Shown here piece by piece: positions 14,035 to 17,351 of a stretch of DNA of 34,464 bases (position 1 is its first letter; every line of letters starts with the position of its first letter). Source of the DNA: an uncultured Anaerobiospirillum sp. GTDB lineage: Bacteria; Pseudomonadota; Gammaproteobacteria; Enterobacterales; Succinivibrionaceae. Made by a program: the position numbers and the translations under genes. The notes below the pieces were generated by a model. The model was given only the letters and a program-made list of their open reading frames with translations, ran no database searches and was not told the DNA's origin. The DNA is taken from positions 1-34,464 of the forward strand of contig CALXOW010000031.1 of the NCBI GenBank assembly GCA_944390115.1, given 5' to 3'.

Positions 14035-14274
14035 GCGATTTTTCAAATTTTTGCTGAATTTTTTATGATGCCATGATTTTGCCTTAACAAAACGCGATTT
14101 TTATCGTGTTTTGTGCGCTACATCACTTTTAGCGCTACGATCTCCCCAATCTGAGGGCCCTGGGGGCCAGCGCGCGCAAGGCGCAGTTGGGCTGGGAATA
14201 GGACACGGGTTGGGTGGCGATGCCGCACGTGGGTAGGGGCAGGATGGGGATTGTGCGTGAGAATGCGTTTCAGT

Positions 14275-14305
14275 TTGCGCCGCGCGCGCTAAAAAGTTGT
14301 ATAGT
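14275..14305 (+). promoter_or_regulatory. thrS promoter
   Basis: TATAGT (14300-14305) is preceded by TTGCGC (14275-14280) with a long 19-bp spacer and followed by GAGCCCCG, the same discriminator as the divergent tRNA-Val promoter. It would give a leader of about 230 nt before thrS. Confidence 0.6.
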
Positions 14306-14511
14306 GAGCCCCGTTGTGGGTGCTCTCAGTTGGACCTGATTGCTGGGTCACGCTGAGCCCTTCGATGGCTGCGCACGGACTAGCGCTTACGAGTCAGTGG
14401 AGCGCATGGTTGCGTTGCTGTCTGAAACGAGCCTGAGCTGAAGTTCCTTTTTTTCTCTTTTTTGCTTGGCTGGGCTTTCGTTTTTCCCTTTTCTTTTTTA
14501 GAGGACCTCAA

Positions 14512-14528
14512 GGTGCATCGTTGGCACC
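14512..14528 (+). promoter_or_regulatory. thrS operator: tRNA-Thr anticodon-arm mimic
   Basis: GGTGC (14512-14516) pairs with GCACC (14524-14528) around the 7-base loop ATCGTTG. This is the exact geometry of an anticodon arm: 5 bp, 7-base loop, U in the position of U33 and CGU in positions 34-36, the anticodon of tRNA-Thr(CGU). It ends 13 bases before the thrS ATG. In E. coli, ThrRS binds a similar anticodon-like hairpin in its own mRNA and blocks ribosome loading. The same feedback is inferred here. Confidence 0.75.
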
Positions 14529-14541
14529 GTTGGTTTGAATC

Positions 14542-16491
14542 ATGATTAAAGTTACTCTCCCTAATGGCGCAATCAAGGAGTTTGAGCGCGCAGTTTCGAT
14601 CGCTGATGTCGCCGCTGCTATTGGCCCAGGTTTAGCCCGCAGCTGCGTTGCTGGTCGTATCAATGGCGTGTTACATGATGCCTGCGACTTAGTAACCGAG
14701 GATGCTGCTGTCGAGATCGTCACCCCTAAGGATAAGGACGGTCTGGAGATTATCCGCCACTCCTGCGCTCACCTCTTAGGCCATGCCATCAAGCAGTTAT
14801 GGCCTCAGACCCAGATGGCAATCGGTCCGGTCGTCGATAATGGCTTCTACTACGACGTCGACTTAGACCACAAGCTCACCGCTGAGGACTTAGAAGCCTT
14901 AGACGCTAAGATGCATGAGCTGGCTAAGACCGACTATAAGGTCATCAAGGAAGTAGTTTCCTGGCAGCAGGCTTGGGACGTCTTCGATCAGCGCAATGAG
15001 CCTTACAAGAAGCTCATCTTGGAAGAGAACATCGATAAGAACGACCACCCAGCACTCTATCACCACTTAGAGTACACCGATATGTGCCGTGGCCCACACG
15101 TTCCACATATGTCGTTCTGCTCGCACTTTAAGTTAACCCACTTTGCTGGTGCTTATTGGCGCGGTGACTCCAAGAACAAGATGCTGCAGCGTATCTACGG
15201 CACCGCTTGGGCCACCAAGGAAGAGTTAGCTGAGTACTTAAAGAAGCGTGAAGAGGCCGCCAAGCGCGACCACCGCGTCTTAGGTAAGAAGTTAGACCTC
15301 TTCCACTTCCAGCAGGAAGCTCCAGGCTTAGTCTTCTGGCACAACGATGGCTGGACCATCTACCGCTTAATCGAGGACTACATGCGTGGCATGCTCCACA
15401 AGTACGGCTATATCGAGGTTAACACCCCTCAGATTATGGATCGTGTTCTGTGGGAGCGCTCGGGTCACTGGGATAAGTACGCCGAGAACATGTTCACCAC
15501 CTCCTCGGAAAATCGTGATTACGCCATCAAGCCAATGAACTGCCCAGGCGCTATCCAGATTTTCAACAGCCGCACCCGGTCTTACCGCGATCTGCCAATT
15601 CGTATGGCTGAGTTCGGTAAGGATCACCGCAATGAGCCATCGGGTTCGCTCCATGGCCTGCTGCGTGTTCGTGGCTTCGAGCAAGACGACGCCCACATCT
15701 TTATCACCGAAGATCAGATCCTCCAAGAGGTTACCGAGTGCATCAAGATGGTGTACGAGGTCTATGACAACTTCGGCTTCCACAATATCGACGTTAAGCT
15801 CTCGACCCGTCCTGAGAAGCGTATCGGTTCCGATGAGATCTGGGATAAATCCGAGCAAGATCTGGCCGATGCCTTAAAGGCTAACAACCTCGAGTATGAC
15901 CTCCAACCAGGTGAAGGTGCTTTCTACGGTCCTAAGATCGAGTTCACCTTACACGACAGCTTAGGCCGTGCTTGGCAGTGCGGTACGATTCAGCTCGACT
16001 TCTCGCTGCCACAGCGCCTTGATGCCCACTATATCGGTGAGGACAATCAAGAGCACACTCCAGTTATGATTCACCGTGCGATGTTAGGCTCGTTAGAGCG
16101 CTTCATCGGTATCTTAACTGAGGAGTTCGCCGGTGCCTTCCCTACTTGGTTAGCCCCAATTCAGGCCGTAGTGATGAACATCACCACCAACCAAGTTGAT
16201 TACGTCAAGGAAGTGGTCAAGAAGTTAGACGAGGCTGGCATCCGCGTTCGTGCTGATCTGCGCAACGACAAGGTTGGCTTCAAGATTCGCGAGCACACCT
16301 TAATGCACGTTCCTTATATGTTAGTCTGCGGTGATCGCGAGGCCGAGAATGGCCAAGTTGCCGTACGTACTCGTAAGGGCGTTGACTTAGGTGCAATGGC
16401 AATTGAAGATTTGATCGCTATGATCAAGTCTGATATAATTTCGCGCAAACTTTTGACCAAGGCTGATGAGAAGCCTGAAGAGCAAAAGTAA
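14542..16491 (+). CDS. thrS: Threonyl-tRNA synthetase
   Basis: Class II synthetase with editing. The 649 residues (E. coli 642) show an N-terminal TGS domain (about 1-62), the editing domain with HSCAH at 73-77 and CRGPHVP, and the catalytic core. The zinc ligands fall at the same numbers as in E. coli: Cys334 (MNCPGA), His385 (DDAHIF) and His511 (MIHRAM). Motif 2 is [20 protein letters not shown]; the anticodon-binding domain occupies about 540-640. There is no strong ribosome site next to the ATG; initiation probably depends on the operator region upstream. The last codons depart from the gene's strong TTA preference because they contain the infC promoter. infC, rpmI and rplT follow. Confidence 0.97.
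16411..16439 (+). promoter_or_regulatory. infC-rpmI-rplT promoter inside thrS
   Basis: TTGATC (16411-16416), a 17-bp spacer and a perfect TATAAT (16434-16439) lie in the last codons of thrS. The frame there uses ATA, CTT and TTG, rare elsewhere in this gene, as if constrained by the promoter. E. coli also has infC promoters inside thrS. Confidence 0.75.
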
Positions 16492-16503
16492 GGCTTTAGC
16501 TGC

Positions 16504-16588
16504 ATCAAGTCGCGATTAGGCGAGCTTGATCCAACAAAGAGCTATGAACCTGGAGGGTCACCCTTTAGTGCTTGTAGCTCTTTTGTTG
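16504..16588 (+). promoter_or_regulatory. Two stable hairpins in the thrS-infC leader
   Basis: Hairpin 1: ATCAAG-TCGC (16504-16513) with GCGA and CTTGAT (16520-16530). Hairpin 2: CAACAAAGAGCTA (16532-16544) with TAGCTCTTTTGTTG (16575-16588), one base bulged, with an internal GGGT-CA-CCC. There is no T-run after either, so they are not ordinary terminators. They would lie in the 5' leader of the infC transcript. The role is unknown. Confidence 0.6.
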
Positions 16589-16642
16589 TGGGTAAAACTT
16601 GCCTAAGGGATCTCGCGCTGCCCCAAAAGGAAGGTATCGCCA

Positions 16643-16706
16643 TGTGCTAACACCTCGTTGTGGTAACACATCATTGTGCTAACACATCGCTGTGGTAACA
16701 CATCGT
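16643..16706. repeat. Four 16-bp tandem repeats, alternating in pairs
   Basis: Units at 16643, 16659, 16675 and 16691 read TGTG(C or G)TAACAC(A or C)TC plus two bases. The fifth base alternates C, G, C, G, so the array also has a 32-bp period. TGTGGTAACACA is near-palindromic. It lies in the infC leader, about 100 bp before the start. Confidence 0.85.
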
Positions 16707-16802
16707 TCTGCCTGGCCTTTTGGTGAGCACGACCTCTGGTGGTAGCTCCGATCCCAAGGAGAGCAGCCTGACCCAAACTTTCTGTGTAGTAGGAGTTTTG
16801 CT

Positions 16803-17351
16803 ATAAACAGCGCAAAGAAGACCGGTAGGCTCCAGCCTAAAAACCGGGTGAATGGTGATATTAGATGCCGTGAAGTGCGTCTATTAGGTGAGGACAACGA
16901 GATTATTGGTGTTATGCCGACATCTCAAGCTCTGCACATGGCTCAAGAGGCCGGTGTGGACTTAGTTGAAATCAGTCCAAATGCTGATCCGCCAGTTTGT
17001 CGCTTAATTGAGTATGGCAAGTACCTCTACGAGAAGAGTAAGGATCAGAAAAAGAAGAAGCAAAAGGTTGTCCAGATCAAGGAAATCAAATTCCGCCCGG
17101 CAACCGATGAAGGCGACTATCAGGTTAAACTACGCAACCTGATCCGCTTCTTAGAAGAAGGCAACAAGGCCAAGGTGACCCTGCGCTTCCGTGGACGCGA
17201 AATGGCTCACCAGCACATTGGCCTCGATGTCTTAAAGCGCGTCGAGCATGATCTGTGCGAAGAGCGCGGCTTAGCCACAGTGGAAAGCGCCTCGCGCGTC
17301 GAGGGCCGCCAAGCCACTATGGTGTTAGCACCAAAGAAAAAGCAGCAGTAA
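16803..17351 (+). CDS. infC: Translation initiation factor IF-3, starting at AUA
   Basis: IF3 binds the 30S subunit and checks start codons. From ATA at 16803 the frame reads [20 protein letters not shown], matching the E. coli N-terminus that leads into RINGEIR, then [43 protein letters not shown] and the tail VLAPKKKQ. This gives 182 residues (E. coli 180). AGGAG lies exactly 7 bases before the ATA. The only alternative, GTG at 16848, has no ribosome site and would remove 15 conserved residues. E. coli infC starts with AUU so that IF3 represses its own translation; AUA would serve the same feedback. It is transcribed from the promoter inside thrS and with rpmI and rplT. Confidence 0.93.

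Follow-up and report, generated by a model that had tools for sequence, protein, structure and literature searches.

INTRODUCTION

The thrS operator of Escherichia coli is a classic example of tRNA mimicry in an mRNA, worked out mainly in this one organism. The anticodon bases that confer threonine identity are G35 and U36. Threonine identity is attributed to anticodon bases (PMC9976931), and the operator is described as carrying two anticodon-like arms that are bound by threonyl-tRNA synthetase (ThrRS) (PMC11088916, PMC9976931), with control of the operator by the enzyme treated as established (PMC9976931, PMC11088916). The ribosome-binding site of E. coli thrS is described as bipartite, consisting of the start-codon region and the U-rich 3′ part of the linker, with a weak Shine-Dalgarno (SD) sequence and a requirement for S1 (PMC3858243), and domain 2 of the operator reportedly stays folded when it is accommodated on the E. 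coli ribosome (PMC3936740).

Two further systems come close by their descriptions. In the split start regions of T4 genes 38 and 25, a hairpin brings the SD to the AUG, shortening the distance from 22 to 5 nt and from 27 to 11 nt, respectively (PMC3014915). In yeast, mRNAs of aminoacyl-tRNA synthetases carry an anticodon-like element to which the synthetase binds (PMC6542539, PMC9976931); these elements are eukaryotic and come without an SD.

Here we analyze the leader of thrS in a 34,464-nucleotide (nt) stretch of DNA (the window) from an Anaerobiospirillum genome of the Succinivibrionaceae, in which the SD lies 5′ of an anticodon-like hairpin.

RESULTS

The thrS locus of the window

In a protein search, the ThrRS of the window was 100% identical over 649 amino acids to that of locus L005, which serves as the counterpart of the window in the leader comparison. 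The gene is as follows.

Positions 14542 to 16491, forward strand: thrS, threonyl-tRNA synthetase of 649 amino acids, the presumed repressor, a full-length match to E. coli ThrRS (1qf6).

Aligned to the E. coli enzyme, the protein carries the TGS/editing, catalytic, and anticodon-binding domains. With the domain boundaries that we presumed, identities are 33/62 for N1, 117/162 for N2, 217/310 for the linker plus the catalytic domain, and 65/108 for the anticodon-binding domain. An N-terminal extension of ThrRS was ruled out, since an in-frame TGA at 14536 to 14538 prevents translation from starting farther upstream. All three tRNA-Thr isoacceptors (GGU, UGU, and CGU) are present among the 30 tRNA loci of the genome.

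The genes thrS, infC (IF3; Pfam IF3_N and IF3_C), and rplT (L20, 17769 to 18128) stand in the E. coli order. There is no ATG at the expected start of infC; AGGAG at 16791 to 16795 is followed after 7 nt by an in-frame ATA (16803 to 16805, forward strand). E. coli infC starts at AUU, and IF3 of the window possibly starts at this AUA in a comparable way. The roughly 310 nt between thrS and infC (16492 to 16802, forward strand) contain an inverted repeat, AAAGAGCTA..TAGCTCTTTT, near 16537 to 16584, which looks terminator-like by eye and is absent from the list of the terminator scan, and a 16/32-bp tandem repeat at 16643 to 16711.

An anticodon-arm mimic directly upstream of thrS

The hairpin closest to the start codon was described letter for letter by the first-pass annotation.

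Positions 14512 to 14528, forward strand: anticodon-arm mimic P2, counterpart of domain 2 of the E. coli operator, recognized from sequence, conservation, and covariation.

Its stem, GGTGC (14512 to 14516) with GCACC (14524 to 14528), closes the 7-nt loop ATCGTTG (14517 to 14523), in which a T in the position-33 slot is followed by CGT at positions 34 to 36, G35 being 14520 and U36 being 14521. The hairpin ends 13 nt before the ATG at 14542, just as had been claimed. On both strands of the window, 55 places combine a perfect 5-bp stem with a 7-nt loop, giving 110 loops; 8 of these have GT at loop positions 4 and 5, and the pattern N-T-C-G-T-N-N occurs once, in the thrS hairpin alone.

Folding of the 230-nt leader, proposed earlier as a check, yielded no support, since a 270-nt leader folded no better than its shuffles (z = +0.66). 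The 45-nt hairpin piece was not significant either (z = −1.11). Folding energy was rejected as proof of the hairpin for this reason, and the case for P2 therefore rests on the comparison of leaders. A terminator reading of P2 was also discarded: the terminator scan lists the hairpin, but its tail, GTTGGTTTGA, has no clear U-run, and the location is a gene start.

The hairpin is conserved and its stem covaries

Leaders were collected by a protein search, from which the best 80 of 165 thrS loci were kept, and by whole-genome searches, in which thrS was found in 11/11 genomes of the genus and 57/57 of the family. Leaders identical over 90 nt were removed, and the 107 that remained, including E. 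coli K-12, were sorted into 36 with the SD 5′ of the hairpin (SD-up), 65 with the SD between the hairpin and the AUG (SD-down, E. coli among them), and 6 others. Since L011, L020, and L108 duplicate other leaders across the hairpin region, the SD-up alignment (A1) has 33 rows. The hairpins of L025, L027, L029, L083, L084, and L123 were placed by hand; L029, which is degenerate, was left out of the class counts. Among the 107 leaders, no hairpin was found in L030, L078, L125, L135 (contig end), and L139.

All 11 Anaerobiospirillum genomes carry the hairpin before thrS with a CGU loop, although the absence of both from close relatives had been named in advance as the result that would speak against the element. 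Within the genus, the stem GGTGC/GCACC changes to GGCAC/GTGCC or GGTAC/GTGCC, and in Succinivibrio it is mostly GATGC/GCATC. The stem thus covaries across Succinivibrionaceae leaders, as the first-pass annotation had suggested looking for. In A1, 165 of 165 stem cells are paired, with double changes in 3 of 5 pairs. The covariation score was matched by none of 500 shuffles, and 81 of these reached the observed number of further pair types; relatedness is not removed by such shuffling. When the partner was slid by 1 to 3 columns as a control, pairing fell to 12 to 55%.

The loop is kept in a more selective manner. G35 and U36 are present in 22/22 and 35/35 distinct 7-nt loops, a count biased by the automatic hairpin finder, which required GU in the loop. 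When this requirement was lifted, 57 of the 106 strongest hairpins had a 7-nt loop with GU in place, 38 more were, by eye, this hairpin with additional pairs closing its loop, and 11 were others. Among the 22 distinct 7-nt SD-up loops, position 34 is any of the four bases and position 33 any base, with A37 in 19; one 6-nt loop, GAGTAT, also has GU. The exact mimicry of U33 and CGU claimed earlier therefore holds within Anaerobiospirillum but not for the element as a whole, in which neither U33 nor C34 is kept. Because G35 and U36 are the invariant bases and positions 33 and 34 are free, the pattern points to recognition by ThrRS rather than to an exact copy of tRNA-Thr(CGU). With all three isoacceptors present in the genome, the variation at position 34 would fit a synthetase that reads positions 35 and 36.

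A Shine-Dalgarno-like sequence lies 5′ of the hairpin

The first-pass annotation had noted that no ordinary strong ribosome-binding site is nearby. This is right for the segment between the hairpin and the ATG but not for the sequence just 5′ of the hairpin, where the following elements are found.

Positions 14500 to 14505, forward strand: AGAGGA, Shine-Dalgarno-like, with GAGG at 14501 to 14504, 5′ of the operator hairpin and of a kind conserved in the clade.
Positions 14505 to 14507, forward strand: ACC, 5′ side of lower helix P1, pairing with GGT at 14532 to 14534.
Positions 14532 to 14534, forward strand: GGT, 3′ side of P1, pairing with ACC at 14505 to 14507.

An SD match was defined as 4 nt or more of exact complementarity to the anti-SD, and the upstream search covered the 14 nt 5′ of the hairpin. 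Such a match was present 5′ of the hairpin in 33/33 SD-up leaders versus 2/65 SD-down leaders, and between the hairpin and the AUG in 10/33 versus 65/65. Thus, no such match follows the hairpin in 23 of the 33 SD-up leaders, including the counterpart of the window. Of 12 other genes in the window whose starts were read, 10 have such a match within 20 nt. Canonical 16S 3′ ends occur at 7 places in G031, an SD-up genome, and at 6 places in G028; the drafts G000, G003, and G016 yielded none.

Measured along the sequence, the SD of the SD-up leaders is 33 to 43 nt from the AUG, and across the hairpin, as a matter of geometry only, the distance is about 6 to 13 nt (the value of 15 for L006 reflects a script match to GTGA; its GAGG gives 10). 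In the window, GAGG ends at 14504, 37 nt before the ATG, or 9 nt if 14506 to 14533 are looped out. SD-down leaders have a spacing of 3 to 9 nt with a mode of 4, and the looped spacing of SD-up leaders is longer. The upstream SD adjoins the CC of the lower helix with 0 or 1 nt between them, L006 excepted, where the script chose another match.

The CC/GG core of P1 is present in 33/33 leaders, with an outer A-U pair in 20 and a G-U pair in 13, in a register chosen for best pairing. The inner pair switches among T-A, C-G, and T-G in 14 Succinivibrio-type leaders, which are real double changes found there only; among the 19 Anaerobiospirillum-type leaders, it is paired in 6 and unpaired in 13. Flank swapping was set aside as an argument for coevolution, since 1,201 of 20,000 permutations were as good. 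Support for P1 is thus drawn mainly from invariant pairs.

In free-RNA folding, the upstream SD is mostly paired, with a median unpaired probability of 0.25 over the 33 leaders and 0.03 in L005; it is therefore predicted not to be simply open. In the fold of a short piece of the window, the SD region GGACC pairs with GGUUU after the hairpin.

A second SD-like GAGG occurs just 3′ of the hairpin in seven Succinivibrio-type leaders (L018, L021, L022, L023, L026, L028, and L116), where, as part of the 3′ strand of the lower helix, it faces CCT. It is similar to the GAGGTT found in L032, L033, and L133, which are SD-down leaders of the Ruminobacter type, and is possibly a relic of, or an intermediate in, the move of the SD.

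An upstream arm, a T-rich linker, and a candidate promoter

Farther upstream, three additional features were recognized.

Positions 14371 to 14414, forward strand: upstream anticodon-like arm, counterpart of E. coli domain 4, with the loop GAGTCA at 14391 to 14396 and GU at 14393 to 14394.
Positions 14446 to 14499, forward strand: linker rich in T, interrupted by GCTTGGCTGGG and read from the sequence, a putative counterpart of domain 3 in E. coli.
Positions 14300 to 14305, forward strand: TATAGT, a possible but weak −10 element of a thrS promoter, read by eye, implying a leader of about 230 nt.

Many leaders have a two-tier hairpin upstream of P2 with GU in the apical loop, and this GU is invariant in the alignments, which cover 29 of the 36 SD-up loci. 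The segments, picked by eye from folds, were aligned for 12 Succinivibrio-type loci (A3) and for 17 other loci (A4). The arm is unclear or the sequence short in L007, L014, L015, L031, and L116, and L020 and L108, identical to others over the hairpin region, were likewise left unaligned. In A3, 93% of 142 cells are paired, and double changes occur in 10 of 12 pairs, a number reached in 0/500 shuffles, which again leave relatedness in place. In A4, 119 of 132 cells are paired in the 12 Anaerobiospirillum-type leaders and 23 of 25 in the 5 Succinatimonas-type leaders; pooled, the 17 score 75%, and 119/500 shuffles reached the number of double-changed pairs, an outcome due in part to an offset of one position between the two types. 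Three Succinatimonas-type loops are 7-nt and anticodon-like (GUCGUCA, GGGGUCA, and CGGGUUA). The arm of the window folded alone with a z value of −1.46.

T-rich stretches are seen by eye in many other leaders as well, and the 270-nt fold of the window pairs parts of the linker. As for the promoter, the scan of the window did not list TATAGT at 14300 to 14305 and shows no thrS promoter. In relatives, TATAAT or TATACT was found in 27 of 31 loci, giving leaders of 108 to 143 nt in 25 of them and of 189 and 242 nt in two; the script for these two motifs found none in L005, L006, L017, and L087.

Distribution of the two leader types

A model built from the SD-up leaders (R1) matched genomes in six of the 14 genera of the family, 39 of 57 genomes in all, partly by construction, since it was made from leaders of these species. 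Apart from G041, each genome has one strong place, which is beside the ThrRS start. In G041, a second match (G041:C60:44-89) with a score equal to that of the thrS leader lies at another contig end and is possibly an assembly overlap. Fourteen other family genomes have the hairpin in the E. coli form (that of G053 being cut by a contig end), three have no hairpin before thrS (G022, G038, and G052), and in G020 it is degenerate. The hairpin-less leaders L030/L121 (G038), L125 (G022), L139 (G052), and L078 sit inside hairpin-bearing groups, and control of thrS may have been lost in them.

In 395 genomes of the order, R1 found 22 of Succinivibrionaceae and one weak match outside the family (G273, E = 0.008), with no ThrRS match within the 801 bases around it. 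Three weak second matches (G003:C12, G047:C49, and G010:C7; E = 0.09 to 0.44) were considered as further ThrRS targets and rejected; one is antisense in an open reading frame (ORF) that, from its sequence, we presume to be flagellin-like, one is in two overlapping ORFs, and one is where no ORF of 90 amino acids is listed.

On the ThrRS tree, a single clade (support, 100/100) contains every SD-up leader; it is made up of 35 SD-up rows, 2 in which the hairpin is lost, and 1 that is degenerate, and the other 23 rows of the tree comprise 22 SD-down and 1 lost. With midpoint rooting and the degenerate row at an open fork, the SD-up label needs four changes, which we read as one gain and three losses. 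A single move of the SD would be the simplest account.

The E. coli-type model (R2) was built from 37 SD-down leaders, E. coli included (A2), in which 96.9% of 259 cells are paired. The covariation score of A2 was matched by 0/500 shuffles, and the double changes in 5 of 7 pairs were reached in 135/500, relatedness not being removed in either case. R2 matched 278 of the 395 genomes of the order at E ≤ 0.01, among them the SD-up genome G033 with a weak match (0.006); in G000, there was no match at this threshold. In the class, it matched 14 of 151 genomes at E ≤ 1e-4. All 29 order matches that were checked lie before thrS (the 10 best, including 3 from family genomes read before, and 19 sampled at intervals farther down the ranking), as do 13/13 class matches checked, the remaining one of the 14 having been seen earlier. 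These thrS-adjacent matches across order and class point to an old thrS operator, of which the window element would be an evolutionary member. By eye, CACTG directly follows the hairpin in 32/32 leaders from many families (L208 to L226 and L258 to L270), a count biased by the model used for finding them, which contains that stretch; it may have a function of its own.

Rfam yielded no match to a T-box or another leader in 14250 to 14600 up to E = 1, and it gave no family for the operator in the leaders scanned. Its only matches above the gathering score were a single tRNA in each of the window, L090, and L105; the E. coli thrS piece L142 had nothing at this level.

Comparison with the E. coli operator

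In the E. coli leader, the corresponding hairpin is GTGATCT-TTCGTGT-GGGTCAC with the loop UUCGUGU, in which G35 is G(−32). There is also a variant called BS4-9, which we take to be an operator mutation. According to a figure legend in PMC3936740, G(−32) is changed in BS4-9.

The window and E. coli share the gene, the position, the 7-nt anticodon-like loop with G35 and U36, a second such arm farther upstream, a linker that is T-rich by sequence, and a ThrRS that can be aligned over its full length. They differ in the stem (5 bp versus 7 bp in E. coli), in the lower helix (ACC/GGU), and in the SD, which is 5′ of the hairpin in the window and between the hairpin and the AUG in E. coli. The domain 1 layout is thus not found in the window, nor is the CACCACTG..AAGGA stretch of the E. 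coli type. The likeness to the autorepression hairpin of E. coli pointed out by the first-pass annotation is borne out, with P2 as the counterpart of domain 2, and the compared sequences indicate that the window element is homologous to the E. coli operator. Autogenous control kept in a distant lineage, as had been suggested, is supported by the comparison, but the lineage is not very distant, belonging to the same order-level group.

DISCUSSION

Our preferred reading, to which we assign a probability of roughly 0.7, is that the leader carries a translational operator of thrS in which the SD has been displaced to the 5′ side of the tRNA mimic and the hairpin would be looped out. From the leaders compared, it is very likely that autogenous control has been kept, in a variant with the mimic between the SD and the AUG, and the hairpin probably lets ThrRS shut down its own production. 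We infer that the leader offers two imitations of the tRNA-Thr anticodon arm (14371 to 14414 and 14512 to 14528), and that dimeric ThrRS free of tRNA-Thr would bind G35 and U36 of both loops through its anticodon-binding domains. Bound in this way when it exceeds tRNA-Thr, it would keep the 30S subunit off the thrS start and limit its own synthesis. When the start is free, the 30S subunit would use GAGG at 14501 to 14504 with P2 and the lower helix ACC/GGU looped out, so that the distance between SD and AUG would shrink from 37 to about 9 nt. The mimic would then have two roles: as a spacer, it would make the start site usable, and as a handle, it would allow ThrRS to close that site; ThrRS binding might also stabilize a closed form in which the SD is paired. 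Use of the upstream SD across a looped-out hairpin is suggested by the hairpins of T4 genes 38 and 25 and by the E. coli ribosome accommodating domain 2. In T4, a distant SD is likewise brought near by a hairpin, which is described as a spacer, whereas that of the window is presumably also the repressor site and imitates a tRNA arm. The yeast synthetase mRNAs can be likened to the window by description.

An unlikely alternative accepts the ThrRS operator but takes GAGG as a structural part of the lower helix rather than the SD of thrS, the ribosome being brought to the AUG by the U-rich linker and S1. It would agree with the in silico pairing of the SD, GGACC with GGUUU in the window, with the weak SD and the need for S1 reported for E. 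coli thrS itself (PMC3858243), and with the downstream match kept in 10/33 SD-up leaders. What speaks against it is that complementarity to the anti-SD is kept in changing forms (GAGG, GGAG, AGGA, AGGAG, and AAGGAG) instead of one sequence, and that an SD match of 4 nt or more downstream of the hairpin, lacking in 23/33 SD-up leaders, is present in 65/65 SD-down leaders. Less probable still, in our judgment, is a role of the hairpin confined to the start region. Hairpins between SD and AUG can stimulate initiation alone, as described for T4 genes 38 and 25 (PMC3014915), and a mere spacer or stability element unrelated to ThrRS might therefore be imagined, but such an element would hardly explain a loop in which G35 and U36 are invariant and their neighbors vary, a second arm with the same GU, or strong matches that sit before thrS in every case examined, and it is the counterpart of an operator whose control by ThrRS is presented as established (PMC9976931, PMC11088916). 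We regard this structure-only account as very improbable.

A further alternative involves a short reading frame within the hairpin.

Positions 14513 to 14545, forward strand: possible upstream ORF of 10 codons, with its GTG in the 5′ arm of P2 and its TGA (14543 to 14545) overlapping the thrS ATG (ATGA).

The upstream SD would here serve this RTG, thrS would be translationally coupled to it, and ThrRS would block the upstream start. ATG or GTG does occur in the 5′ arm of P2 in 31/33 leaders, 6 to 9 nt after the SD, the overlap of TGA and ATG in the window resembles translational coupling, and a stop within 9 nt of the thrS start is found in 17/31. But the stops are not significantly enriched over the 24/62 of the other two frames (P = 0.18), the reading frame varies (13/11/7), also between close relatives, and in 4 of 31 leaders the upstream ORF would be fused to ThrRS. 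L010 and L012 (L011 being identical to L010 here) lack the RTG and yet keep the upstream SD, with none after the hairpin. In addition, the same arm positions read GGTAC, GGTAT, or GATAC in 8 of 11 SD-down leaders of the family that have no upstream SD, so the R and the T of the arm need no start codon to explain them. We consider the upstream ORF improbable, between the structural role of GAGG and the structure-only account in likelihood, and hold to a thrS operator with a displaced SD.

The ThrRS-operator hairpin itself is already known from E. coli; what appears to be new, judging from the leaders, is an SD on the other side of the tRNA mimic. The literature consulted, mostly without subscription papers and with the older work on E. 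coli thrS known through reviews and later papers, held no study of Succinivibrionaceae thrS leaders or of an SD 5′ of the operator. The comparison singles out the parts of the operator that hold among the compared leaders, namely, G35 and U36 of the loop, the pairing, and, in the SD-up clade, the second arm. With somewhat less assurance than for the operator as such, we favor the view that the SD jumped across an ancient autoregulatory hairpin in one clade of the Succinivibrionaceae, where the mimic would have become a required spacer as well as the switch for ThrRS. Such a natural rearrangement of a split ribosome-binding site would provide a direct test of whether the 30S subunit tolerates the hairpin or needs it.
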